IMG/VR virus record: IMGVR_UViG_3300042458_003482
Coordinates: 1 to 33,219 of that record
Origin: a virus
Length of the DNA: 33,219 nt
Strand: one strand, 5' to 3'
Below are positions 9,513 to 30,212 of the stretch, in pieces. The notes beneath the pieces are model-generated. The model was not told the origin of the DNA. It was given only the letters and a program-made list of their open reading frames with translations, and searched no databases. The position numbers were made by a program, and so were the translations under genes. How positions within the stretch are numbered: the first letter of the stretch is position 1; each line of letters begins with the position of its first letter.

Positions 9513-9600
9513 GCTTTCTCCTTTTTTCAGTCTTTGATTGTACGGCTCGCTCGAGTGCGGGCTCGGCGGTTGCCGTTTCTAGTCGTTTTCGAGTTGCCAT
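9454..9600 (-). CDS. Uncertain basic small ORF, 48 aa
   Basis: An ATG overlapping the end of the glycosyltransferase gene opens a 48-codon frame (MATRKRLETATAEPALERAV...), very basic, ending in TGA inside the connector gene. It covers the only gap between the glycosyltransferase and the connector, where related phages often keep a small basic protein. The ribosome site is weak and 59 bases overlap the connector, so it may be only a chance frame. No family is recognised. Confidence 0.35.
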   Translation of the reverse strand: MATRKRLETATAEPALERAVQSKTEKRRKRGSNKRILHPVRPEDVPRD

Positions 9601-10268
9601 GAGATATGGTGCCTCTCGTCGAGCCAGTAACTCTTTTGGTGCGGCAGAATAGCCGCTGTGTTCACGTGGATTGGAAAGCCGAGCTGGCGAACCCTGCGGC
9701 TGAATAGCAAGTCTTCACTAATCCACTCACCGTTCAGCGGCCCGTCCCAGAACCAGCACCAGTCTGTGCCTTGGTGTGGGTCTGCGATTTCTCGCATCTT
9801 TTCCAAGACGCTTCTGTGGATTAGCACGCAGCCTGTTCCACAAGCATCTATCTCGAAAACGGCGTTTCGGTCGTACCTAAACAATGGCAAGAACCCCTCG
9901 GGGGCATCTTGAAAAATCGCGGGGACGGGCTTCGGATAGAGGCCTTCGTCCTTGAATGCTGCAAACACTAGGCCCGAAACTACGGGGCGTTCTAAGTGGT
10001 GCGCGGTGTTGATGAGCTGGTCAAACACTGAAACCGACAGCTGTTCATCAGAGTCTATTAATAGCAACCAGTCAGAGTCTGTGCTGTCCAAGAAAGTCTT
10101 GACTACTCTGTTGCGTAACTTGCTGAGAAGCCCGTTGCCTTTAACGCGGACAAAAGGGCCGAGTTTGTCGCTTCTGACTTGCGCAAGCTGGATAAGCTTA
10201 AAAGCGAAATCGCCATTTACGGTGCCTGGGTCACAGACGCCGATTGATACTTTGTGCCCTGATTTCAT
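9579..10268 (-). CDS. Family 2-like (GT-A) glycosyltransferase
   Basis: The 229-residue product has a GT-A layout. A Rossmann-like start (KVSIGVCDPG) is followed by an Asp-X-Asp metal and nucleotide-sugar site (LLLIDSDEQ, Asp72 and Asp74). Later come the acidic segment GEWISEDLLFSRRVRQLGFP and a histidine-containing end motif (ILPHQKSYW). Such enzymes transfer a sugar from a nucleotide sugar. Phages carry these among structural genes, and in mycobacteriophages such enzymes are known to decorate virion proteins. It sits between capsid and connector genes, so the neighbouring virion proteins are the likely substrates (inference). Its ribosome site, GGGGGAG, lies within a possible masking hairpin. 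Confidence 0.82.
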   Translation of the reverse strand: MKSGHKVSIGVCDPGTVNGDFAFKLIQLAQVRSDKLGPFVRVKGNGLLSKLRNRVVKTFLDSTDSDWLLLIDSDEQLSVSVFDQLINTAHHLERPVVSGLVFAAFKDEGLYPKPVPAIFQDAPEGFLPLFRYDRNAVFEIDACGTGCVLIHRSVLEKMREIADPHQGTDWCWFWDGPLNGEWISEDLLFSRRVRQLGFPIHVNTAAILPHQKSYWLDERHHISWQLEND

Positions 10269-12767: not shown

Positions 12768-14197
12768 TAATTGACCTCATAAACGGACGATGGATTTTCA
12801 GGGTCAATCGTTGAGACTTGCTGCAACTGACCTGTTGGAACTCCAGTATGACCCATCGGCGGCAAGCCAACAGCCTCGAGGACCGATTTCGGCTCGAATC
12901 CGACTTGAATCAAGTTGGTTGCGATTTCTGCCCTCAGCTTCATACCGACCTCTTTTGCGTCTGTCAAGTCGATATTTTGCAGTGGAACTCTGTATTGGTC
13001 GCCGTCTGCGACTGGTGCCATGTCTTCCGATGCATGTACGTCGTTGACTGACAAAAAGCCCTCGTTCAGGCCTTTTGTGTAAGCCTCGTAGCGCTCGAGT
13101 GTTGTACCACGAAGCAAGGCGTCAAGGTTGAACTTGATGAAGCCGTCAGGCTCTGGCAGTAGAGGTGAAAGTGCTTGTTCAATGCGCTCCAAAAGTGGAC
13201 GCAGTGAGTGCTGTACGAAAGACAAGTTCTGTGCTTCAACGGATGCAAACGACATTGCGCCTGCCACTGGGTGGCCGAGTAATGAAATCGGGACGCGGAA
13301 AAGGCGAGCGATTTCTTCAACCCCAAAACGACGAACTTCGAGAAGCTGTGCATCTGCGGCGTTGAGTGTTAGCGGCTTAAACGAAGCGCCACCAGTCAGA
13401 ACGCCGAGCTTGCCCGCACGGTACGGGCCAGTGTGTGAAAGATTCCAGTTGCGTGCGATGTCTGTGATTTGCTCTTCAGTAAGTTCGCCTGGAGATTCAA
13501 TGACGCCGCCTGGGTTGGCCGCGTTTCCAAAGTAAGAGGCTGCGTACACTTCGGCTGCCATCGCAGAACCCAAAGTGATGCGGGCTGCACCGATTGGACC
13601 GAGTCCAAGCAGCTGGCCTGGGAGTCTAAAGAGTGGAATATGAAGCATCTCGCGCTTCGTCAGAATCATTGTCTTTGTGGCGCCCTCTGCAGATTGCAGC
13701 CCGTCATACAGGCTGTTCTGACTGTTGGTGCCGATTGTGACTTCGTAGTAGATTTCGGCTTCTGCACTCGGACGGCGAATGCGCACGTTCTGTGGGTTGA
13801 TGCAGTAAAGCTCCATGACATCGCCCAGCTCGTCGCGGACGGTCAGAATGAATGCGTTGCCGTGCAGGTTGAGCGAGGTTACGATTTGCTCGTAGAACTC
13901 CAGGCGTGTGGTGTCTGGATTCGGGCGGCTTACCCACTCTGGCTGCGAGCCATAGACTGCGGCGTACGAAATGCGTTGACGTCCTCTGCGCACGTAGGCA
14001 GAGAGGGGCAAGGAACCAATTGTATCACCTAAAAGGCGCACACACGCGTAAACGGTGGACATGCGAATTGCCGTGTCGGCATTAACATCAACTCCAGCTG
14101 GAGATGAGTATGCAGGACGGCCTGGCACTAGCGGCTCAACGAATTGGTTCTGTGCTCGTTGTTCACTAGCCTTGCGCAGTCTGTTTGATAGACTCAT
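12767..14197 (-). CDS. Portal protein, HK97 family
   Basis: The 476-residue product has the typical portal signature. After a basic N-terminus (SLSNRLRKASEQRAQNQF) comes VDVNADTAIRMSTVYACVRL followed by IGSLPLSAYVRR. Later motifs include NPDTTRLEFYEQIVTSLNLH with GNAF, and PISLLGHPVAGAMSFASVEA. These mark dodecameric portals of the HK97 type, through which DNA enters and leaves. Its start overlaps the upstream glycosyltransferase stop by four bases. The order portal, protease, capsid is standard. Confidence 0.92.
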   Translation of the reverse strand: MSLSNRLRKASEQRAQNQFVEPLVPGRPAYSSPAGVDVNADTAIRMSTVYACVRLLGDTIGSLPLSAYVRRGRQRISYAAVYGSQPEWVSRPNPDTTRLEFYEQIVTSLNLHGNAFILTVRDELGDVMELYCINPQNVRIRRPSAEAEIYYEVTIGTNSQNSLYDGLQSAEGATKTMILTKREMLHIPLFRLPGQLLGLGPIGAARITLGSAMAAEVYAASYFGNAANPGGVIESPGELTEEQITDIARNWNLSHTGPYRAGKLGVLTGGASFKPLTLNAADAQLLEVRRFGVEEIARLFRVPISLLGHPVAGAMSFASVEAQNLSFVQHSLRPLLERIEQALSPLLPEPDGFIKFNLDALLRGTTLERYEAYTKGLNEGFLSVNDVHASEDMAPVADGDQYRVPLQNIDLTDAKEVGMKLRAEIATNLIQVGFEPKSVLEAVGLPPMGHTGVPTGQLQQVSTIDPENPSSVYEVN

Positions 14198-15270
14198 TTA
14201 GTGGCCTTTTCTGTGTCGAGTTGGTACCAGCCGTCGTCCCAAAGGGTCAACAACCGCTTGAAATATCGCTCGTATTGCACGCCGACCGCTTCGAGTGAAT
14301 ATTTCTCAATCGCTTGCTTTCGGATAGCTGCGCGGTCTAAAGACTTGACGTCCTCTGCCGCTTGCACGAACTCTGCCAGCGTGTGGCATCTGTAGCCAGT
14401 CACACCGTCGATGTTTGTCTCTGTAAAAGCGCCCCAGTCGGTGGTGATTGTTGGAGTGCCGCAGGTCTGAGCTTCGACCACGATATTGCCGAATGGCTCG
14501 ATGTAGGTAGTCGGCGCAAAAAGTGCAACAGCGCCGCCCATCAACTCTGCCCGCTGTTCTGGGCCTACGTTGCCAACAAACTCGCCGTACCCGCCATTTG
14601 GAGTGCCAGGACCTGCGATTATGAGCCTCTTGCCGAGGCGCTCGCAGACCTCTTGCGCGATGTTGTAGCCTTTTCGCTCAATAAGTCTGCCGATAAAAAA
14701 GTAGTAGTCTCCGTCGCCTTTGCCCTCGGGAAACATTTCAGGCTCGAGATACCCAGGGATAACTGCGTCAAAAAAACCGCCATCAACTGTGGTTGGGTTC
14801 TTATGTCCCGCATAGATGGAGTGCATCCAAGCATAAGACTCGAAGACCTTGAACTTGGCGAAGGTGCCACCATAGCCGATGCCGAACTCCACCGCAGTGT
14901 GTGCAGGAAAAGAGTCTGCGATTGGCTTGTGTGCGTAGCCGCCAATCAAACAAATGAAGTCTTTCGGCTCGATACGTTCGCGCATGCGGTTGATGACCGT
15001 CGCGTTAAAGATTTGCCAGTGCGGCAAGCTCGTATCGAAAGAGGCTGTCGTGTAGTGGGCGTCGCCGACTGCTGCAGCTCTTTGCTGTTCGCTTATGCAA
15101 ACCACGTGCTCTGTCACTGGTGCTTCGTTCTGCTCGCCTGCGTAGAGAACGACCTCATGCCCGAGGTCTGTCATCATGATACAGAAACGACGCACTTTCT
15201 CTGTGAAAGCGCAAGTTGCGAAGTCTTTAGTGACTTGTGTGTGTGGCAGTGCTACAACATGAAATCTCAT
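14194..15270 (-). CDS. Family 4 (GT-B) glycosyltransferase
   Basis: The start chosen at 15270 has a ribosome site (GGGGGA, three-base spacer); seven extra codons upstream lack one. The 358-residue product has a GT-B fold. Its C-terminal domain carries FIGRLIERKGYN (Arg195 and Lys200 in the donor phosphate site) and the EX7E pair Glu258 and Glu266 in YIEPFGNIVVEAQTCGTPT. Family 4 enzymes transfer sugars with retained configuration. Its place between the adhesin genes and the portal suggests that it modifies virion proteins, as does the family 2-like enzyme downstream. An origin from a host cell-wall gene is possible. Confidence 0.88.
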   Translation of the reverse strand: MRFHVVALPHTQVTKDFATCAFTEKVRRFCIMMTDLGHEVVLYAGEQNEAPVTEHVVCISEQQRAAAVGDAHYTTASFDTSLPHWQIFNATVINRMRERIEPKDFICLIGGYAHKPIADSFPAHTAVEFGIGYGGTFAKFKVFESYAWMHSIYAGHKNPTTVDGGFFDAVIPGYLEPEMFPEGKGDGDYYFFIGRLIERKGYNIAQEVCERLGKRLIIAGPGTPNGGYGEFVGNVGPEQRAELMGGAVALFAPTTYIEPFGNIVVEAQTCGTPTITTDWGAFTETNIDGVTGYRCHTLAEFVQAAEDVKSLDRAAIRKQAIEKYSLEAVGVQYERYFKRLLTLWDDGWYQLDTEKATK

Positions 15271-15290
15271 TGGTCCCCCGACCTTTGACA

Positions 15291-15521
15291 TTAAAGCGCT
15301 GCGATTTCTTCTGCTGATAGGCCGAGTGCTGCAAGTTTTGCTTCAGCCGAAGCTTTTGCTGCGGCCTTTGCTGCAGCTGCAGCTTCTTCTTCTGCACGGC
15401 GTGCTTCAAAATCTGCTTGTGTCGCCAAATACTGGGCGAGTTCAGATTCTGTCATCGGGCGTTCGGTTGAGATGCCAGTAGTGCAATCAATCTCAACGAC
15501 TGTTGGTGTGTCTGTTGTCAT
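15291..15521 (-). CDS. Small alanine-rich coiled-coil protein, 76 aa
   Basis: The ATG has a GGAG ribosome site. The product has a short polar start (MTTDTPTVVEIDCTTGISTE), then a long helix rich in Ala, Glu and Lys (about residues 25-65). It ends in the motif KLAALGLSAEEIAAL, which I recall at the end of short tail-fibre-associated proteins in many phages. It may help fold or attach the preceding adhesins, but no activity is known. It ends just before the glycosyltransferase gene. Confidence 0.7.
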   Translation of the reverse strand: MTTDTPTVVEIDCTTGISTERPMTESELAQYLATQADFEARRAEEEAAAAAKAAAKASAEAKLAALGLSAEEIAAL

Positions 15522-15533
15522 TTTTTCTCCTTG

Positions 15534-16055
15534 TTATGAGTTTTTGATGCCGTAAAGAGTGATAGTCGAAAGAGCATTGAGAGAGCCAGTCGTGTACGTG
15601 ATGGCGTTTATTGCTGCAGTAGAGTTCCAAGTCCCAGCGCTGAAGTTGTTGGCTCCAGCGGTGGCTGCGTTCTCTGACGCTACGTACGCAAAAGTTGACT
15701 TGCGGGCGGTCGTTGAGGAGTAATTTGGTATGTAGATTTCGTAATTGCTGTAGCTGTTGGCTGTAGAGCTGGCAGCTGGCGAGGCGCCTATGTAAATAAA
15801 CGCTAGGTAACCGCCACCAACAGATTGACCAGATTGTGAACTGACGCTTGTTCCAGTCGCGTAGTTGCGTCGCCAGTTGTAATTAGTCCCACCATCACCA
15901 TTGAATGTAAACCAGTCGTCTCCAAACGCACCAGCATCAGTCCTGCGTATTGAAACCTTCATGATGAGGTCTTTGTAGCCTTGAGGTATTGATGTCAAAG
16001 ACACAGAAGACGCGCCAGCTGTGTATGTTCCAATCTTAACGTATGTGTTTGGCAT
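15534..16055 (-). CDS. Adhesin-array beta protein 1 (173 aa)
   Basis: This is one unit of a domain repeated in this array. Hallmarks are an N-terminal strand pair ending SLTSIPQGYKDLIMKVSIRR, an FNGD motif near residue 52, glycine- and serine-rich strands, a YIPNYSS element, and the C-terminal ending STITLYGIKNS. The domain is predicted to be all-beta, probably a trimer-forming sandwich. It is likely a sugar- or receptor-binding head on a virion fibre, judged by position next to collagen-like fibres; no known family is assigned. The ATG overlaps the previous TAA (TAATG). Confidence 0.75.
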   Translation of the reverse strand: MPNTYVKIGTYTAGASSVSLTSIPQGYKDLIMKVSIRRTDAGAFGDDWFTFNGDGGTNYNWRRNYATGTSVSSQSGQSVGGGYLAFIYIGASPAASSTANSYSNYEIYIPNYSSTTARKSTFAYVASENAATAGANNFSAGTWNSTAAINAITYTTGSLNALSTITLYGIKNS

Positions 16056-16582
16056 TATGCCGCCTTTATTCCGTAGAGGGCTACCGTCGTGCCAACATCA
16101 AAAGAGTTGGCGTTTGTCACGCACGTGACCGACGTAATCGCAGCTGTATTGCGCCAAACCGAAACGACTGTTTGGACGTAATCCAAAACAATGCCCGAAG
16201 AATTACTTGCGACGGCCATGCCAATCACCGATTTAGCCATAGACGTGTTCGTATAGCTCATAATATAGAAAGTATTCGGGGCGAACAGAGAAGCAGCTTG
16301 TGACGAACCAAACAAGCCACCGACATCAGCCTGTGTTCTGTTTGTTGCTCTTGTTGACCGCGCAGCAGCACCACCATCGTCATCAAGAAAAGTATAGCCG
16401 TAGTTTGCGCCAGAATCACCATTGAAACGCAGATTAAACTGAGACGCAGCCCCAGTGTTGCGGCCAACGGCACGAATCTCAATATCGGTGTAGGTCTGAG
16501 GTATGCTGCTGAATGTAATGGTCGCAGCTGAACTTGCGAGTGTTTGCGACGCTATCAATTCGTATGTTGCACTAGCTGGCAT
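16055..16582 (-). CDS. Adhesin-array beta protein 2 (175 aa)
   Basis: This is another copy of the domain, with ITFSSIPQTYTDIEIRAVGR, FNGDSGANYGY and the ending VGTTVALYGIKAA. It differs from copy 1 mainly in loops (DDDGGAAARST, FGSSQAASLFAPN), as expected for variable binding sites on a conserved frame. The FNGDSGANY motif may bind a metal or form a sharp turn. It is translated from an ATG nine bases after the upstream gene ends. Confidence 0.75.
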   Translation of the reverse strand: MPASATYELIASQTLASSAATITFSSIPQTYTDIEIRAVGRNTGAASQFNLRFNGDSGANYGYTFLDDDGGAAARSTRATNRTQADVGGLFGSSQAASLFAPNTFYIMSYTNTSMAKSVIGMAVASNSSGIVLDYVQTVVSVWRNTAAITSVTCVTNANSFDVGTTVALYGIKAA

Positions 16583-16591
16583 TGTCCCGTC

Positions 16592-17869
16592 CTATGCTAT
16601 TCCGTACAACGCAAACGACGTTAGCGTTGAAAAGTTGACGTACGCGCCAATCTGGATTTGTGTGACTGGCGCCAACACTCCCTGCATGCCAGAGTTGTTT
16701 CCAATAACCCCGTAATTCTGCCCACCAGTTGCAGTTGCTGGGTCTGTCCAACCACCAACCGAACGAATGGTCTTGTTTTTGTTTGGGTTTGTGTACTCAA
16801 GGATATCAATGATGTAGGCACCGACAGTGAAAGCAGTTGACGAAGCGCCAGGCATGAACGGGTAACAACCGTTGGTGGCTGCTGCCACCACGAACCTCGC
16901 ATTCGCGCCGTCTCCTTCAATCCCATGCGTCGCATAAACGTTCCCAGTCTGATTGTTGTATGTAATCAGAATATTGTCGGTTGGATTGGACGAACTGCCA
17001 GACCTAGAAACGCCTCGAATCTGCAAATGTGTGTAGTTTTGCGGTATGTTCGTGAAGATGATGGTAGAGGCTGAACCAGTCCCGTTTAGTGTGGCGATGC
17101 TGGAGTACGCGTTGGCGCTGGTAACAGCGCTTGATGCCGCTGAAGCGCTTGTGCCTTTCGAGTTCACACTCGACACTTGATATGTGTACGAAGTGTCAAG
17201 CGTTGCTGGTGTAATGATAGGGCTGAGTGCGCCATAAGTTGTGGAGCCGCTGGGGTTTGAAGTGACCACGTAGCTGTCTGCTCCGTCATTTGCGGCTGGT
17301 GTGAAAGCGACGGAAGCAAAACCAGCCTGGTCAGTGACGGCACCGATTGTCGGCGCTAAAGGTGCGGCAACATCGAAATGGCTTGAAACGCCATAAAGAG
17401 TGAAAGTTGAGTGCTGCAAGAAGGTGCCACCGTTACCAGACAAAGTGAGTGAAGTAATCGGGCCAGTAAACGAAGTAGAAACGGACTGCAGGTTCATGTA
17501 GCCAGCGGTGCTATTCGCTTCAGAAGCGGAATCAATAATGAGTTGCTTGTAGTTGCCGCCCGTGTAATTCGGTATATAGACTTCGGTGACGCCGAAGGTG
17601 TTAGCGGTTTGTTCGCTGGGAGTGTAATAAAAAAACGAAGTGAAAGCGCCAGAACTCACAGAACCGTTGAAGACCATGTACGTGCCTGAGTTACTTACCG
17701 CCCCGTTCATGCCTATAATGCCGTAGGCGTTAGCGAGTGCGTTTGAGCCGCGCACAGACATAACCAGCTTTAAGTCGGTAAAGCCCTGCGGGATATTGTT
17801 GAATGCTATCGTAGCCGCGCCGCCAGCACCGACGGTCTGAGTGTAAATCGGTTGTACGAATACTGACAT
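16592..17869 (-). CDS. Adhesin-array protein 3: two beta domains flanking an FnIII domain (425 aa)
   Basis: The product contains two copies of the array domain: residues about 1-163 (IAFNNIPQGFTDLKLVMSVR to STFTLYGVSSH) and about 254-425 (IFTNIPQNYTHLQIRGVSRS to SFALYGIA). Between them residues about 168-251 form a fibronectin type III-like domain (APTIGAVTDQAGFASVAFTP through TYQVSSVNSKGTSA). FnIII domains in phages are common spacers or weak sugar binders. A fusion of two heads with a spacer is a useful hint that neighbouring single-domain proteins pair with each other. Confidence 0.78.
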   Translation of the reverse strand: MSVFVQPIYTQTVGAGGAATIAFNNIPQGFTDLKLVMSVRGSNALANAYGIIGMNGAVSNSGTYMVFNGSVSSGAFTSFFYYTPSEQTANTFGVTEVYIPNYTGGNYKQLIIDSASEANSTAGYMNLQSVSTSFTGPITSLTLSGNGGTFLQHSTFTLYGVSSHFDVAAPLAPTIGAVTDQAGFASVAFTPAANDGADSYVVTSNPSGSTTYGALSPIITPATLDTSYTYQVSSVNSKGTSASAASSAVTSANAYSSIATLNGTGSASTIIFTNIPQNYTHLQIRGVSRSGSSSNPTDNILITYNNQTGNVYATHGIEGDGANARFVVAAATNGCYPFMPGASSTAFTVGAYIIDILEYTNPNKNKTIRSVGGWTDPATATGGQNYGVIGNNSGMQGVLAPVTQIQIGAYVNFSTLTSFALYGIA

Positions 17870-17871
17870 CG

Positions 17872-18393
17872 CTATGCCCCCGTCACGTTAGAGACAGAGA
17901 CGCCATACAAATCCCAGCGAGAGTGTGTGTCCCATCCAGTTGTTATGCCCAGGTTTATTGTGTTGATGGCTTCTGGGGTTTTGAACCAAAGCCCAGACTG
18001 CACAATGGCCAACCCAGACCCGTTTGCGTCGTAGCTGCCTTGAATCTTTATTGTCTTGTTTTTTACTGTCGATGTGTAGTCCAATATATCTATAATCAAA
18101 CCCCCATACACATTGGCCGTTCCAGTTGCTGCAGGCACGGCTGGCAAAGCAATAAACGTGTTCGTGCCGCCGTACCCACTGCCGCCTGTTGCTCCGTTTC
18201 CAAAGATTGAATGTGAGTTGTAGTTAGAGGCCCCAGCATCTGAGTTGAATTGGATAGAAGCGATGGCCGTAGCTGCGGCTGCCGTGCTCCTCATAAATAA
18301 ACGCAATTGTAAATGTGTAAAGTTTTGCGAGATACCTGTGATATTGGTTGCAAAACTCGAAAGAGCTCCACTAGCGATTGGATACATGCTCAT
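17872..18393 (-). CDS. Adhesin-array beta protein 4 (173 aa)
   Basis: This is a copy of the array domain with a shorter N-terminal part: NITGISQNFTHLQLRLFMRS, FNSDAGASNYNSHSIFGNG, and the ending RWDLYGVSVSNVTGA. It is most like the second domain of the upstream two-domain protein in the HSIFG/HGIEG stretch and in DILDYT versus DILEYT. It probably arose from that domain by duplication. Its start overlaps the end of the preceding gene by four bases. Confidence 0.73.
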   Translation of the reverse strand: MSMYPIASGALSSFATNITGISQNFTHLQLRLFMRSTAAAATAIASIQFNSDAGASNYNSHSIFGNGATGGSGYGGTNTFIALPAVPAATGTANVYGGLIIDILDYTSTVKNKTIKIQGSYDANGSGLAIVQSGLWFKTPEAINTINLGITTGWDTHSRWDLYGVSVSNVTGA

Positions 18394-18971
18394 TGACCGA
18401 TGCTCCTAACGCCATAAAGCACGACAGTGGAACCGCCTACAAAAACGCCACCGCTTTCGTCTGAGATGCGTATTGAAGTGATGCCGCTAGTCGAGCGGTA
18501 CAAAAAGTTGGTGAAACGAGTCAGGCTGCCTTGCGTTCCGCTGTTTATATCAGAAGCAGAGCGCGACAAAACTGTCTTGAACACAGAAGTGTTTGCATAG
18601 TTCATAATGTGTGTTACCATGGCACCGAACCTATAAGGTGCAGCTCCAGCAGCTGGTTCTGCGCCTACTCTACCGAGTGTCGCTGATGTGTTCCTGCCAG
18701 TTGTGACTGCAGCGCCATCACCAGACAAGTTTGTGTCGCTATAAAGCGCAGAAACGTCATCATTTAATCGCAAGTACAAAAAACCCTGTAAGTTTGCTGA
18801 TGTGTTGCGGGTATTCCAAACTAGCATGAGGTCTCTATAGCCCTGCGGTATCGAAGTGAATGCGAGTTCATATCCAGTGCCGCCACCAGCTGGCGTTGTG
18901 TACTTTGCAATAGGCACAAGCGCGCCGTGCATCGTTCCAGCAGCGTTTGATGCGTATGGTTGTAATGCCAT
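18390..18971 (-). CDS. Adhesin-array beta protein 5 (193 aa)
   Basis: The start chosen is the ATG at 18971, overlapping the upstream TAA (TAATG). The product has a 20-residue lead (MALQPYASNAAGTMHGALVP) and then the array domain: FTSIPQGYRDLMLVWNTRN, LRLNDDVSALYSDTNLSGDG, and the ending GGSTVVLYGVRSIGQ. The typical FNGD is replaced by LNDD. The lead may link the head to the collagen-like fibre protein encoded just upstream. Confidence 0.75.
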   Translation of the reverse strand: MALQPYASNAAGTMHGALVPIAKYTTPAGGGTGYELAFTSIPQGYRDLMLVWNTRNTSANLQGFLYLRLNDDVSALYSDTNLSGDGAAVTTGRNTSATLGRVGAEPAAGAAPYRFGAMVTHIMNYANTSVFKTVLSRSASDINSGTQGSLTRFTNFLYRSTSGITSIRISDESGGVFVGGSTVVLYGVRSIGQ

Positions 18972-19525
18972 TAGGCTGTAATGTCCCCGAGCAAGACCCA
19001 ACTATCAGTCCCGCGCTTTAGGAGTGTCGCACCAGAGTATTGCGCTCTTAGTTTTAGACCTGGGTTTGACACGATTGTGACTCCACCAGTGGCAGCGACA
19101 GTCACTTGGCCTGCTCCAGTTTGTAGCAACGTGATTTGGGCACCGATTGCAAAAGCGGCAGAGCTGTTTAGGGGCACAGTCAATGTGATTGCGGAAGCGT
19201 TGTTGAGTTCAACTAGTTTGCCGTCGTCGCCAATAACAAGGGTGTAAGTCGTGCCTGTTTGCGCATTGATGACAGTGGCAGGCGCGGGGCCAGTTACTCC
19301 AGTCGCACCAGTCGGACCTGTCGGTCCAGACGGACCTGTCGGTCCAGTTGCGCCAGCAGAACCAGCAGTGTAAGCGTAGGCTAACGAGTTCCAAGCAGTA
19401 GAACCGTTGCCCATCTTCCACTTGTCGGTGTCTGTTTCGAGTCCGATTTCACCCTGCGCAAGAATGGGATTGTTAGCTGTCCAGTTGGCCGCGGTATCTC
19501 GGCGCTGTTGGAGTCTTGATGTCAT
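18971..19525 (-). CDS. Short fibre protein: Mtd-like N-terminus, collagen-like linker, beta head (184 aa)
   Basis: The N-terminal 50 residues (SRLQQRRDTAANWTANNPIL...KWKMGNGSTAWNSLAY) match the short virion-anchoring module known from the N-terminus of the major tropism determinant and many phage fibres. Residues about 54-80 are Gly-X-Y collagen-like repeats ([14 protein letters not shown]). The rest is a compact beta domain (YTLVIGDDGKLVELNNASAI...) of a type common at fibre ends. The layout anchor, stalk, head argues for a short trimeric side or tail fibre. It lies between the long collagen-like protein and the array domains. Confidence 0.8.
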   Translation of the reverse strand: MTSRLQQRRDTAANWTANNPILAQGEIGLETDTDKWKMGNGSTAWNSLAYAYTAGSAGATGPTGPSGPTGPTGATGVTGPAPATVINAQTGTTYTLVIGDDGKLVELNNASAITLTVPLNSSAAFAIGAQITLLQTGAGQVTVAATGGVTIVSNPGLKLRAQYSGATLLKRGTDSWVLLGDITA

Positions 19526-19546: not shown

Positions 19547-21460
19547 CTAGAATGTCGTGACGGACGCGCCAGCGTCAATCGTGTAAGTCCATGAAGTGGT
19601 GCCCGATGTTTCTGCGTTGTAGATTGCGTCTCCCCAAAGGTTTGATGCACCGCCGTCGAGGTAGTCCACAACGGGGTTGTCGCCGCCTTGTGGTCCAGTC
19701 GCGCCTGTCGCGCCGACGGGTCCAGTTGAACCAGTTGCACCGACTGGGCCTGTTGCACCGCTTGCACCAATGGCGCCTTGTGGGCCTGTCGGTCCAGTTG
19801 CGCCTGTCGCGCCGTCTGTGCCGTTAGTGCCTGCGGGGCCTGTGGCGCCTGTTGCACCGACGGGGCCTGTAGCACCGACGGGGCCTGTAGCACCGACGTC
19901 ACCTGCGACACCTTGTGGACCAGTAGCGCCGACGGGGCCTGTGGCACCGATTGGGCCTGTGACTCCGACCAAACCTTGCTCGCCTTGAATGCCTTGTGGG
20001 CCTGTCGCACCAGTTGCACCTGCGGGGCCTGTTGGTCCTTCAGCACCTGTCGCACCGACTGGACCTGTTGGGCCAGTAGCACCGACCGCGCCTGCGGGGC
20101 CTGTAGCACCAGTTGCACCAGTCGCGCCATCAACTCCCGCAGGGCCTGTTGGACCTGTAGAACCGATTGGACCTGTCGCACCTGTTGGGCCTGGCACCGT
20201 CGAATCCGCACCTGTTGGGCCTGTAGCGCCGATTGGGCCTGTTGGACCAGTCGAGCCTGTTGGACCTTGTGAGCCTGTGGCGCCTGTTGGGCCTGTTGGG
20301 CCGACTGGTCCTTCGGGGGCTTGCAGTGAAGTGATGACAAACGAGTAGTGCTGTGAGCCCTCTGTGTAAAAGTTGATTGAACGTGCCGTGCCGTCGTCGT
20401 TGCGTGCGTAAAGCTCGACTATCATGCGGTCGGTTTCTGCTACTGCAGAGCTTGGCAGCACAATTTCGAGCTGTGTAAGCATCGGATTTGCGCCGTCGTA
20501 TGGAATTAGAGTTGCATCTGTGTCGCCGATAGTTGCAAGGACTGTGCCAGCGCTGTCTGCAAGTTTTAAGCGAGCGAACGCATAAACGTCAGAGCCGTTA
20601 GTGGGCTTGCTAAAGAAAAGATTAAAGCGCTGCACGCCAGCTGGAATCAGCGTGAAACCAAACTCCTCGCTGATGTACTGCTGCATAAGCTCTGTCGAGT
20701 TGCCAGCAACGGAGTTTGTGACAGTCGCCATCGCTGCGCCAGTTGGCTCTGTGCCAAGCTGCTTGTAACCAGTCAGCTCTGTGATGGACTCATTGAAATA
20801 GTAATAGCGGCCTGTGGTATAACCCTGTGGACCAGTCGCACCTGTCGCACCTGTGGCGCCTGTTGCACCAGTTGCGCCGACTGGGCCTGTTGGGCCTGTC
20901 GCGCCGATTGGGCCAGTCACACCTGTAGGGCCTGGAACAAACGAATCCGCACCTGTTGGGCCTGTAGCGCCGATTGGGCCTGTTGGACCAGTTGCACCCT
21001 CGATGCCTTGTGGACCTGTTGCACCAGTCGCGCCAACGGGACCTGTAGCGCCGATTGGGCCAGTCACACCGATTGGGCCAGTCACGCCGATTGGACCTGT
21101 AGGACCAACTTCGCCTTGTGGCCCAGTGGCACCGATTGGGCCAGTTACACCGACCTCGCCTTGAATGCCTTGAATGCCTTGTGGGCCTGTAGAGCCAGTC
21201 GGTCCCGTCGAGCCTGTTGGGCCTGTAGAGCCGATTGGGCCTGTGACACCTGTTGGACCGATAGCACCTGTCGCGCCTGTTGGGCCTGTTGACCCTGTTG
21301 GACCTGTCGCACCGACTGGACCTGTAACACCAGTTGCACCTTGCGGGCCTGTCGCACCTGTAGGGCCAGTTGGACCCGCAGGTCCTTGAGCACCAGGCGA
21401 CATGATTTCAACGGTGTTGACGTCCTTGATTACCGTGACTTCGTTGCAGTTATTAGACAC
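19547..21460 (-). CDS. Large collagen-like fibre protein (637 aa)
   Basis: Two long runs of Gly-X-Y repeats (residues about 23-213 and 384-593, mostly GPTG, GATG and GPIG) flank a beta-rich domain (214-383, beginning [20 protein letters not shown]). A short C-terminal domain (594-637) follows. The repeats should form triple helices about 50-60 nm long each (about 0.29 nm per residue), so this is a long trimeric fibre. The N-terminus has a cysteine and an acidic stretch ([18 protein letters not shown]) that may attach to the virion. Phage collagen-like proteins are usually tail or head fibres; here the association with glycosyltransferases suggests surface display. The Thr-rich repeats could be sugar acceptors (inference). 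Confidence 0.88.
19682..20311 (-). repeat. Collagen-like coding repeats, tract 2
   Basis: This is a tandem nine-base-periodic coding repeat for Gly-X-Y triplets (GGX CCN ACN-type codons), read on the minus strand. Degenerate units such as GGCCCGACG/GGACCTGTT recur many times. Such tracts can change length by slippage or recombination, so length polymorphism among related phages is expected. They also create large overlapping frames on the other strand and in other frames, which are not genes. Confidence 0.9.
20822..21394 (-). repeat. Collagen-like coding repeats, tract 1
   Basis: This is the second Gly-X-Y repeat block of the long fibre gene, separated from the other by the 170-residue beta domain. 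Units similar to those of tract 2 recur, including [11 protein letters not shown] here and [11 protein letters not shown] there, which shows that the blocks share an origin. A duplicated collagen segment around an inserted domain is the simplest explanation. Confidence 0.88.
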
Positions 21461-26048: not shown

Positions 26049-26440
26049 TTGGCGAAGCCGCCCCACTCACCGTTGTGACGTGCATACTGCGCCATTTTGG
26101 TGTAGATAGCGATGTCATGCCATGTGTCGTCGCTTGGTTTGCGTCCGTCTGCGTAACCGCCAACAAGACGGGCCACCTTGCCGAGCACATAGAAAGCGAT
26201 GCCGAGTTCATCATTTGAGACGTCCTTTGGCTCGCCAATCATTTGACTCAGCGCAAAGCCAATGACTTTGAGGTCAGCACTACCATACTCCAAGGCCTTT
26301 GGAATGACAGAGTCTAACTCGTTGCGTGTCTCGTCCAGCCACCACTCAGCCAGCTGCTTCACACCGTCTGGTGCAGTGTCGCCTTCAAGTGGTAGCTTAC
26401 CAAGCGCGGCCGCCAGGTCTTCCCATTTCTCAAACGCCAT
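26045..26440 (-). CDS. All-helical protein of unknown family, candidate MazZ-like
   Basis: The ATG overlaps the purZ TAA (TAATG). The 131-residue product is predicted to be all alpha-helical. A conserved-looking C-terminal half (NDELGIAFYVLGKVARLV, YADGRKPSDDTWHDIAIYTK) carries acidic residues Glu78, Asp105 and Asp109, and an N-terminal helix carries Glu37 and Glu41. This recalls MazG/HisE-type NTP pyrophosphohydrolases but lacks their exact ExxE motif. I recall similar proteins in other actinophages without a known function. Its place directly after purZ makes a dGTP-to-dGMP role (MazZ) attractive but unproven. Confidence 0.6.
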   Translation of the reverse strand: MAFEKWEDLAAALGKLPLEGDTAPDGVKQLAEWWLDETRNELDSVIPKALEYGSADLKVIGFALSQMIGEPKDVSNDELGIAFYVLGKVARLVGGYADGRKPSDDTWHDIAIYTKMAQYARHNGEWGGFAK

Positions 26441-27474
26441 TATTTCACCCACGCCATTGTTGATGGTCCTGTGCCCACAAGCGCAACACGCGCATTGACT
26501 GCGTCCTCGATGTCCTTGATGTACTTGGCTTGGTCGTCAGACAAAATGTCAATCTGTGACTGGTCTTTCAGCTCTGGAAAGATGTAATCGAACATGGTGA
26601 GCGCGATTTTGACATTTGGTGAGCCGCCGTTTGCAATGACTGCCTCACGAACTAGGGCTGCATCAAAATGGCCGACACGGCGAATCTTTTGAGTCACTGT
26701 GGTGCGCTCTGCCTCTAGACCAAGCTCTTCCCAGTTGGTCTCGTTCTCGAGTGGACCAGAGTTGCCAGCCACACGGATTGGGTAAGTGCGTGCAGTTACC
26801 CAGACATCAAAGATGTCCACTGCTTTGTCCCAAGGTGAAACGCCAGCTTGTGACAAGAAGTCAATGGCACGGCAATCTTGGCTTGTGCAGAATGGGTACT
26901 GACCTGCGTGCAATCCGAGTCCATAGCCCTGTGTGCCTTCGATTAGCGCTGTGCCACCAAGGCGCAAGTGCTCGCGAATAACTTTTGAAGTATCTACTCC
27001 GCCGCCGAATAGAGTCGCCTTGCGCATGATGCGGTCCGCACGTGCAGCGCCGATTCCCTTGCTGGTCGAGCCGATTCTGGCTTGGATATTGTCTGCGGTT
27101 TCGATATCGTGGTGCATAGGCTCCAAGATGGTCGCCTGGTCGTCCACGAGGATGCGTGAGCTGGCTTCGTAGCCTGCCTTGTCTAGGTCGTGCAGCTCGC
27201 GATTGAAGACTTCCATGTCAATCTCTGACCCTGCCGCGATGATGAGGTCAGACTCTGGGGCTGTCACTGCATTCACTGGAATTGAGCGCAAACGCCAAGC
27301 GTATGACTCCTCTCCGTCTGGCCCCTTGCCATAGACTGTGTGCCCAGCGTTTGGCCCTGCAACTCGAATGCCCATGAATGGTGCGTCTGATGTCGCGGAT
27401 AGGTAGCCTGCTACTGCTCCCTTGCCTTCGCTGCCGTACTGACCGCCAACAACGGCGATTAAACGTCCTGCCAT
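26440..27474 (-). CDS. purZ: Aminoadenylosuccinate synthetase (PurZ), Z-DNA synthesis
   Basis: The 344-residue product is an adenylosuccinate synthetase homologue. The P-loop-like start reads GGQYGSEGKG: Ser15 takes the place of the catalytic Asp in the WGDEGKG of PurA, a known mark of PurZ. His45 (GPNAGHTVY) is kept, as are the IMP/dGMP-site motif STSKGIGAARADR and EGTQGYG. The GTP-specificity motif TKLD of PurA has become TMFD (293-296), consistent with PurZ enzymes using (d)ATP. PurZ joins aspartate to dGMP; host PurB and kinases then give dZTP (2-aminoadenine). The shorter length compared with PurA (about 430) also fits. A ribosome site GGGGGA precedes the ATG. Confidence 0.88.
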   Translation of the reverse strand: MAGRLIAVVGGQYGSEGKGAVAGYLSATSDAPFMGIRVAGPNAGHTVYGKGPDGEESYAWRLRSIPVNAVTAPESDLIIAAGSEIDMEVFNRELHDLDKAGYEASSRILVDDQATILEPMHHDIETADNIQARIGSTSKGIGAARADRIMRKATLFGGGVDTSKVIREHLRLGGTALIEGTQGYGLGLHAGQYPFCTSQDCRAIDFLSQAGVSPWDKAVDIFDVWVTARTYPIRVAGNSGPLENETNWEELGLEAERTTVTQKIRRVGHFDAALVREAVIANGGSPNVKIALTMFDYIFPELKDQSQIDILSDDQAKYIKDIEDAVNARVALVGTGPSTMAWVK

Positions 27475-27966: not shown

Positions 27967-28134
27967 TCACCCCTGGTGCCCCCAGCCAGTGCCCTTAAAG
28001 ACGACCCCTGGAGAGGACCAAACTCTATCAGCAAGCTGGCCACAACACAAGGGCGCCACGGTCTCGCCATGCACTGAACCGTCCACCGTCAGGGACATGC
28101 TGCATATCCCGCAGCGAAACTCATAAATCGGCAT
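27967..28134 (-). CDS. FmdB-type zinc-ribbon protein, 55 aa
   Basis: The ATG overlaps the PrimPol TAA (TAATG). The product begins MPIYEFRCGICSMS, the hallmark start of FmdB-family zinc ribbons. It continues with a second cysteine pair in APLCCGQ and the ending RVWSSPGVVFKGTGWGHQG, also typical of that family. Four cysteines (Cys8, Cys11, Cys30, Cys31) probably bind zinc. FmdB-like proteins are thought to act as small regulators, but their function is not settled. The link with a primase-polymerase is worth noting. Confidence 0.85.
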   Translation of the reverse strand: MPIYEFRCGICSMSLTVDGSVHGETVAPLCCGQLADRVWSSPGVVFKGTGWGHQG

Positions 28135-30212
28135 TAAACAATCCCCTCGAATGGTAGCGGTGCTCCAAGCACATACGGCTTGCAGTGGCTGTAATAGCGC
28201 CCTTGGCCAGATGCTCGGACTGACAAGTGCCCAGTGTTCTCCAGCTGTGAAATCGCCTTCTTGATTTGGTCGGTTCCACCCTCGATTGCCTGGACGATTT
28301 GATTGGTGGACAGCTCTGCCCCGTGCTTCTCCATGAACTCCGACAGCTTTCGCATCAGGTATTCATGAGGTGAGAAGCCAGTCTGTCCACCAACGATTGA
28401 GATTTCGATACTGTTATCGGGCTTGGAAATCAAGTCCACAGTACCGACAAAGGACGCCTCTTGTGAGATTCCGCGCACGAAACCTGGGCGGTCCTTGGTG
28501 ATTTTGAGATTCAGCTTGCCATTAGAACCACGGCCGAAAGGCATGGAAACGTCCACAGAAATGGCGACGCCGTCAATGTCTGCACGCTTTGCTTGTGCAC
28601 CGATGGCGTAATTGCCGCGGTTGTCCTTGCTCTTGGTGACGTGGTCAATAGTCAAGACCGCAGCCCCCCACAAACGGAGCGGGCGCAGCACAACCTGCGA
28701 GAATTGAGTCGCGTCTTTGTTCTTTTCAAGGTCCAAGCCCAGCAGGTTCATGGCGGCGTTGACACCGTCCATTACAATCAAGTCGGGTGTGAAGTCGCGA
28801 ATCGAGCCCAAGAGAGCTTGCTGTGCGATTTCGTTGTAGCCCCCATCTGGGTTGGCGTACTTGAAGCGGGCAAAATGCTCACGCATGACGCCGAGCGCCT
28901 TCAGACGGCCGCGGATACCACGCTTGGAATCCTCGAAGTCAATGTAAAAGACCTTGTTGCCCTGCACCAGTTGCTGGCGCACAGCTTCCAGCGCCACCCA
29001 AGTCTTTCCAGATTCTGATTCACCAAATATGGCGTTAATCTTTCCCGCATAGAGCAAGCACTGACCGTCGGTGCGGTAAAGCACTGTGGGTCCAGGTTCT
29101 GTCTCGTCCTCATCGAACTCGACCAACCTTGGAAGCCAGCTGGTGTCGGGTTCTGGCGCGGGCAGTTCTGCGATGTCTGGGTCTGGCTCTGGCGTAGGCT
29201 CAGACTCCAGCCACGCGCTGACATCAATCGGCTGCAGGTGACTGCCACCGCCTGTGCCAAATCCCTTGGCTTTCAGCGCTGCCGCAGCCTTTGAGAAGTC
29301 GCCACTGTGCTCGACTAGGGTGTACACCGCGAACTTGGAGTAGGCACGCTCTGCGTCAAAGATGGTGCTGGTGCTGAAGCAGTAGAAAAAGTCTGTGCCG
29401 TCGAAGCCCGTGGTGGCAGAGATGCCCTCGGACTTGCCTGGACGGCGCCACGCGGTTGTGCCGCGGTTTGTGAAGACCTTTGACCACCCCAAGGGCAACA
29501 GAATCTCGTCCCAGCTCGTCTTTGCGTTATAGTCGTCGCCTGGAAGTTCGCGGTTCTCTTCCCGAGTACCCACGGAGACCTCGGAAGCCACCACGGAAGC
29601 CTTTGGAAGTTGGTCAAAATATTTGAATAAAGAGTGAATCGTCTCGCGCTCGTCGAGGCTCAGGACGGGTATTGTCTCAATCGAGCCCGAAATAAGTTGC
29701 CAGACCCCACCCGATGGGTGGCAGGTGCCGCCTGTTGGTGCGACCACCACGAAGCCACCCTCGCCGCGAGTCTCGGCAAGCACATCTACGCCATCATTTG
29801 CACCTGGCCTGCGAGCCAGCTTTGTGTTGCCTGGGACTTCACCGTCTAAGCGGTAGAGCCAGTGCAAACCACCCGAAGGTGTCATTTCGCAATAGCCATC
29901 GTTAAGTCTTGACCAAAGAGCATCGATGCCCATTTCGTGGGCCATCTCTTTGATTTGAGTGTGCATTCCGTCTGCCACGGCGCGACCTTCGAGTTCCATC
30001 ATCTCGAGCGAGCCCGATATCTTGCCCGTGATTAGTCCGACGCCTTGTGCGTCCTTGAACCAGGCTTGCAGCTCATCGGTGGTCGGCATCTTGCTCTGGT
30101 ACTCTTTCCAGGAGCCAATGCCTGGACGCTTGGAGCCGTCGGCCATAACTGGCACAACCGAGCACCCAGCCGCTGCGAATCTTAAAGCGGCAGTGAAGAC
30201 ATCTAGTGACAC
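28134..30212 (-). CDS. PrimPol-helicase fusion, replication protein
   Basis: The 692-residue product starts with a bifunctional primase/polymerase domain (about 1-200). Motif I reads LEMMELEGRA, with two acidic residues (Glu73 and Glu75) where Asp is usual. Motif II is SGGLHWLYRL, and motif III-like DVLAETRGEGGFVVVAPTGG follows. Residues about 385-580 are a RecA/RepA-type helicase with Walker A GESESGKTW and Walker B LIVMDG. The end (about 632-680) is a winged helix. It is the only polymerase in the window, so it probably both primes and copies the phage DNA, as in cyanophage S-2L, whose PrimPol accepts both A and Z. The GTG start has a GGGGGA site. Confidence 0.88.
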   Translation of the reverse strand: MSLDVFTAALRFAAAGCSVVPVMADGSKRPGIGSWKEYQSKMPTTDELQAWFKDAQGVGLITGKISGSLEMMELEGRAVADGMHTQIKEMAHEMGIDALWSRLNDGYCEMTPSGGLHWLYRLDGEVPGNTKLARRPGANDGVDVLAETRGEGGFVVVAPTGGTCHPSGGVWQLISGSIETIPVLSLDERETIHSLFKYFDQLPKASVVASEVSVGTREENRELPGDDYNAKTSWDEILLPLGWSKVFTNRGTTAWRRPGKSEGISATTGFDGTDFFYCFSTSTIFDAERAYSKFAVYTLVEHSGDFSKAAAALKAKGFGTGGGSHLQPIDVSAWLESEPTPEPDPDIAELPAPEPDTSWLPRLVEFDEDETEPGPTVLYRTDGQCLLYAGKINAIFGESESGKTWVALEAVRQQLVQGNKVFYIDFEDSKRGIRGRLKALGVMREHFARFKYANPDGGYNEIAQQALLGSIRDFTPDLIVMDGVNAAMNLLGLDLEKNKDATQFSQVVLRPLRLWGAAVLTIDHVTKSKDNRGNYAIGAQAKRADIDGVAISVDVSMPFGRGSNGKLNLKITKDRPGFVRGISQEASFVGTVDLISKPDNSIEISIVGGQTGFSPHEYLMRKLSEFMEKHGAELSTNQIVQAIEGGTDQIKKAISQLENTGHLSVRASGQGRYYSHCKPYVLGAPLPFEGIV

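Follow-up and report, generated by a model that had tools for sequence, protein, structure and literature searches.

The region described here, five adjacent genes of an IMG/VR virus record, probably encodes two adhesins with three subunit slots each: heterotrimeric concanavalin-A-like tail-fibre heads with slot-specific cassette exchange, whose stoichiometry and receptor we infer. The record was analysed over its whole length of 33,219 bases (the window) and carries genes for terminase, portal, protease, major head protein and tape measure. According to the proposed model, one subunit each of class 1, class 2 and class 3 would assemble 1:1:1 into a pseudo-threefold head that forms the tip of a tail fibre.

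Six domains in five genes

The adhesin block (positions 15534–18971) consists of five adjacent minus-strand genes, transcribed in the order E, D, C, B, A, and encodes six copies of one all-beta domain. A prior sequence-only reading had described six copies of one beta domain in five tandem genes. This was confirmed by BLASTP between the gene pairs (E about 1e-16 to 1e-5 for most pairs, the lowest being 2e-16) and by ten columns that are invariant in the six-copy alignment, among them the I and Q of a SIPQ motif, an arginine, the N of FNGD and the LYG ending. The FNGD-like middle and the LYG ending that it had listed are borne out by these invariant residues in 6/6 copies; its common SIPQ start stands for the I and Q, but gene D has ISQ instead. 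The two copies that it had placed around an FnIII spacer in one protein are both present in protein C. The spacer itself is FnIII-like, but its match to Pfam fn3 (PF00041, E = 0.067) lies below the family cut-off.

Table 1. Adhesin and fibre features of the window. Scores are those of the class 1/2/3 HMMs.
Feature	Positions	Strand	Description	HMM scores (1/2/3)
Gene E	18390–18971	−	Class 2 subunit, first of trio I; domain 18405–18926	94/120/98
Gene D	17872–18393	−	Class 1 subunit of trio I; no tag, domain almost at the start	131/65/69
Gene C	16592–17869	−	Single open frame, 425 aa; last subunit of trio I and first of trio II	
C1 (N-terminal domain of protein C)	17384–17869	−	Class 3 subunit of trio I	62/62/142
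FnIII-like spacer in protein C	17120–17383	−	Connects trio I with trio II	
C2 (C-terminal domain of protein C)	16595–17119	−	Class 1 subunit of trio II	132/61/73
Gene B	16055–16582	−	Class 2 subunit of trio II	115/146/116
Gene A	15534–16055	−	Class 3 subunit of trio II	82/85/134
Upstream fibre protein	18971–19525	−	Mtd_N (PF18454, E = 3.2e-12), short collagen match, small beta domain ending GDITA	
Collagen-like fibre protein	19547–21460	−	PF01391, E = 1.2e-55	

As shown in Table 1, each copy was assigned to one of three classes with HMMs whose training sets excluded the window and its close relatives. From these assignments, the window holds two complete trios, I (E-D-C1, in the class order 2-1-3) and II (C2-B-A, in the order 1-2-3). 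The most likely start of gene E is the ATG at 18971, and a tag of about 15 aa precedes its domain. Gene D overlaps gene E, and genes A and B have one base in common, giving a coupled start. Protein C unites, by way of its spacer, the last member of trio I and the first member of trio II in one chain, which would tie the two heads covalently in series. The same class 3-spacer-class 1 fusion is found in L029 and L283 with divergent sequences.

Three classes in trios of related phages

On sequence evidence, the three classes are ancient paralogues. An IQ-TREE analysis of 90 domains under a site-heterogeneous model placed class 1 in one clade (support 100/97) and class 3 in another (99/92), while class 2 formed almost one clade with window gene B (as the identical L009) at its base with weak support. 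When mapped on the domain tree, gene position within the trio changes 6 times, versus about 110 times after shuffling within trios. The same-class copies of window trios I and II are just 30–35% identical. Given this identity and the age of the classes, there was no recent local expansion, and the term expanded family that had been applied to the block is misleading for this phage. A recent local duplication was likewise ruled out, the same-class copies being closer to those of other phages.

A profile made from the six window copies recovered more than 500 relatives among the viral-contig matches listed. An iterated HMM search over the fetched loci identified at least 319 domains, and this first set contained at least 53 loci with three copies and at least 19 with six. 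Two further scans, each with the pattern of a single class, brought the total to at least 196 distinct loci. The order was 1-2-3 in 162 of the 196 loci listed and 1-2-3-1-2-3 in 15, with nine copies in 2 and the order 2-1-3 in a few. The latter order occurs in the window, L029, L076, L273, L283, L301 and L313, and each class is still present once in the trio. Copy number was tested on the 134 arrays, among the loci listed, that lie at least 900 bases from both stretch ends. It is a multiple of three in 131 of these (three copies in 116, six in 14 and nine in 1). The three exceptions (L036, L087 and L090) have divergent extra or single copies outside trios. In a held-out set of new loci that were fetched by a class 1 DNA motif alone, 34/34 arrays away from the ends were complete trios with one copy per class; a seeming exception, L354, has a class 3 gene truncated by the stretch end.

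Nine subunits in three trios were observed in two phages (L197:4375–9083 and L026:1449–8522). The class 1 subunit of L219 is closest to trio 2 of L197 and its class 2 subunit matches trio 3, which indicates that subunits mix between trios.

The position of the tag provides a second regularity. A median of 19 aa precedes the domain in the first gene of a trio compared to 2 and 2 in the others, and in the four 2-1-3 trios that were counted, the tag sits on class 2, now first, while class 1 has none. In sequence, the tags look like short hydrophobic peptides, MSPILGIYAS being one example. Some phages have longer stalk and fn3 domains on the first chain in place of the short tag, and clear fn3 domains are located just ahead of the class 1 domain in some relatives. 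The genes themselves are tightly spaced, with 242 of 516 junctions overlapping by one base and 492 of 516 at 20 nt or less. Such coupled start and stop codons may lead to equal synthesis of the three subunits. The tag or stalk domain of the first gene would dock the head on the fibre, and the second and third subunits would have no attachment of their own.

Since most solved phage fibre tips are homotrimers, the classes might instead form three separate homotrimers, stacked or at different sites, an arrangement that likewise needs one gene per class. A distant single-copy relative in the C-terminal part of one long Erythrobacter phage fibre protein is in keeping with this arrangement. However, two of the three subunits have no attachment sequence, with about 2 residues before the domain, and the tag goes with the first gene and not with a class. 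One complex with a single anchored chain fits these asymmetries better than three independent homotrimers. The three classes also co-occur, with threes in 131 of the 134 arrays listed and all classes in 34 of 34, and AlphaFold2 docks classes 1, 2 and 3 as a linked chain with a pTM of 0.79. Three homotrimers are therefore considered unlikely.

Several phages (L022:8508–9335, L016, L041, L050, L059 and others) have a glycine-rich C-terminal domain of 250–300 aa on their class 2 or class 3 chains. Pfam Gly_rich_2 was assigned in the one such domain tested, and the domain is a putative second tip on the same head.

Fold, assembly and place on the virion

Predicted as a single copy, as the sequence-only reading had suggested, window protein D gave a confident all-beta AlphaFold2 model (pLDDT = 92.6, pTM = 0.88) with twelve beta strands. 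In the PDB, the nearest folds are those of galectins, ERGIC-53 and the C-terminal sandwiches of GH32 proteins, with a Z of about 6 to 7.9 and 3–16% identity to the adhesin domain. The best match has a Z of 7.9 and an rmsd of 4.0 over 125 residues, and a Foldseek search gave no match at E below 0.001. A concanavalin-A-like beta sandwich is the proposed fold, with the reservation that these middling Z scores may reflect a common beta-sandwich arrangement only. Matches in a library of viral models include many single-domain proteins from uncultured tailed phages as well as proteins containing collagen; thus, the fold belongs to a wider superfamily.

For the assembly, the trio of L073 was chosen in which the three genes are in one frame and the stop codons were read through as short links. 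Since single domains all collapsed into one block in mixed alignments, only in-frame trios and pairs were used and block placement was checked. The resulting alignment was shallow at 29 rows (28 partial or full relatives). The linked trio, which is that of a relative and not the window's own, was predicted over 518 residues with a pLDDT of 80.4 and a pTM of 0.79, a value to be read with the reservation that the very short artificial links favor contact. Domains with no confident mutual arrangement are expected to yield a much lower pTM, and the model therefore supports a compact trimer. Covariation between classes exceeded that of random pairing (top-20 mean of 0.152–0.156 versus 0.105–0.112), and the highest-ranking pairs lie close to the ends of the chains, a signal that common ancestry and linkage could also yield. 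A Foldseek search with the whole linked trio gave solely tandem beta-sandwich matches. The heteromeric heads that had been suggested from the sequence are thus well supported, as far as a predicted complex allows, by the trios with one of each class, the one tag per trio and the placement of the linked subunits by AlphaFold2.

The model of a 391 aa viral protein, BFVD A0A516MP80, aligned with the linked trio across about 400 columns (TM 0.58 by target). Judged from the model, this protein may represent two such domains fused in nature.

The collagen-like fibre protein (Table 1) is likely the stalk and the protein encoded immediately upstream of gene E is likely the stalk end on which the trio docks. 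The C-terminal domain of the latter also precedes trios in many other loci. The window fibre genes sit between terminase and portal, so that attachment to the capsid is possible; the trios could belong to capsid-attached fibres or neck whiskers and not to tail-fibre heads, which is a location that is compatible with a heterotrimer. Elsewhere, however, the trio follows tape-measure and phrog_5313 genes (L126, L219) or a tail fibre protein (L103), and an Mtd_N domain is present in the upstream protein, the only window protein in which it was found. A capsid or neck location consequently appears improbable.

As a tail-fibre head, we infer that the trio serves to bind surface glycans on the basis of its fold and place only. 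Receptor contact would be made by the loops that connect the conserved strands, with a surface glycan as the most likely ligand. With PDB fold matches of Z up to 7.9, carbohydrate binding is a guess.

Among cultured or named phages, matches were limited to the ct2KA10 records and the one distant Erythrobacter phage. In this phage, vB_EliS-L02, a single divergent copy (L090:7917–8444) lies in the C-terminal region of a long tail fibre protein and may be a homotrimeric relative from a cultured phage. Searches of cellular genome contigs with the patterns of one protein and with the class 1 motif found no relatives. This suggests lytic phages, but the narrow patterns may also account for the absence.

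Other genes of the window were noted in passing. Two glycosyltransferase-like genes on the minus strand (14194–15291 and 9579–10268) match phrog_3408 and phrog_34859, the first being flanked by the adhesin genes on one side and the portal gene on the other. A PurZ-like 2-aminoadenylosuccinate synthetase (phrog_1211, E = 4e-81; Pfam Adenylsucc_synt, E = 9.5e-44) occurs together with a Prim-Pol/AAA protein (26440–27474 and 28134–30212, both on the minus strand). Prim-Pol/AAA is reportedly the polymerase type of the Z-DNA cyanophage S-2L. From these sequence matches, the genome of the window phage may contain 2-aminoadenine.

Subunit exchange and comparison with known systems

Exchange of subunits was analysed in 216 distinct trios. 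Summed over the classes, 37 trio pairs have one class at 80% identity or more, and in 22 of these both other classes are below 60% (7/11, 8/13 and 7/13, class by class). Nearest-neighbour agreement between classes (3–5/210) was dropped as too noisy in favor of near-identical pairs and a comparison of their flanks. At 85%, there are 18 such pairs and several have closely related flanks. In the pair L126/L182, the upstream 4.9 kb are 92% identical and the downstream 1.9 kb are 90% identical, while classes 1 and 2 have been replaced. A similar pattern is seen in L192/L189, L135/L136, L034/L102 and L241/L244. Assembly chimeras could account for some of these swaps but hardly for the repeated pattern.

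The gene junctions lie within short conserved stretches of about 130 bases, and the start and end motifs of the sequence-only reading thus coincide with cassette boundaries. Crossover would take place at the conserved LYGI-stop-start-SIPxTYTDL junctions, and specificity would be changed by replacing a single subunit with another of the same class. The pool of interchangeable receptor binders that had been envisaged stands insofar as subunits are exchanged, but only own-class subunits are. In its stricter form, a pool would consist of alternative binders that act singly, with different ones serving different virions or hosts. The strong divergence of the copies and the exchange of single genes between phages are as such a pool would have them; threes with one copy per class, coupled starts and a single tag per trio are not predicted by it, making this explanation very improbable.

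Searches of Pfam, NCBIfam and PDB sequences with the adhesin proteins were empty, and their PHROG matches were marginal, scattered and to families without an assigned function. Membership in a known family was thereby ruled out as nothing usable was obtained, and the statement that no described family could be named was right. Although common in uncultured phages (at least 196 loci), the trio family is absent from Pfam and NCBIfam; it would account for many small-gene trios that go without a name.

R pyocin-type fibre tips are built from one gene as three identical subunits. At the fibre end, R pyocin tail fibres have a lectin-fold receptor-binding domain like the proposed trio head (PMC6363177). 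No comparable heterotrimeric receptor-binding head of a phage emerged from a literature search, which is weak evidence of absence.

The nearest precedent is the unrelated virophage DSLV2, in which three consecutive collar paralogues with position-specific clades co-purify as a 1:1:1 heterotrimer when co-expressed (PMC12724248). The DSLV2 tail proteins bind Synechococcus cells, an anti-LPS antibody blocks this binding, and the phage relatives of these proteins were modelled as homotrimers in the same study (PMC12724248). Three consecutive genes with position-specific clades also occur here. However, the DSLV2 proteins are of the tail collar type (PF07484, T4 gp37-like), whereas the window adhesins have no Pfam match, a predicted concanavalin-A-like fold and belong to tailed phages. 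The DSLV2 heterotrimer was measured, while the window-type trio is known from its genes and the linked-trio model. PF07484 was absent from the five window proteins (E up to 1) and from 74 class 1 members (E up to 0.01). Hence, by analogy, the trio may work like the DSLV2 heterotrimer but is not a member of its type.

Complement C1q also has a heterotrimeric head, in which three beta-sandwich paralogues sit near a stalk of collagen. The likeness is one of plan only: C1q carries collagen and head in one chain, while here collagen is confined to the two separate upstream genes of Table 1, and no Pfam match to the C1q family was found in the window proteins or class 1 members. According to part of a study of cryoconite and marine phages, putative C1q-like receptor binders are replaced by diverged homologues in otherwise near-identical genomes (PMC7468147). 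The variable-island binder described there is a single 1.7 kb gene and a three-class rule is not reported in that part of the study (PMC7468147).

On balance, the trios are favored to be a widespread obligate three-slot adhesin with a pool of cassettes for each slot, recombination of one gene at a time and a combinatorial host range, with two such heads joined in series in the window phage. Receptor binders of phages are usually regarded as homotrimers, and host range is predicted from one gene. If three subunits form one head and are exchanged independently, specificity would be combinatorial and three genes would have to be read together. An asymmetric head of this type would also be a tractable system for understanding how heterotrimers pick one of each partner.
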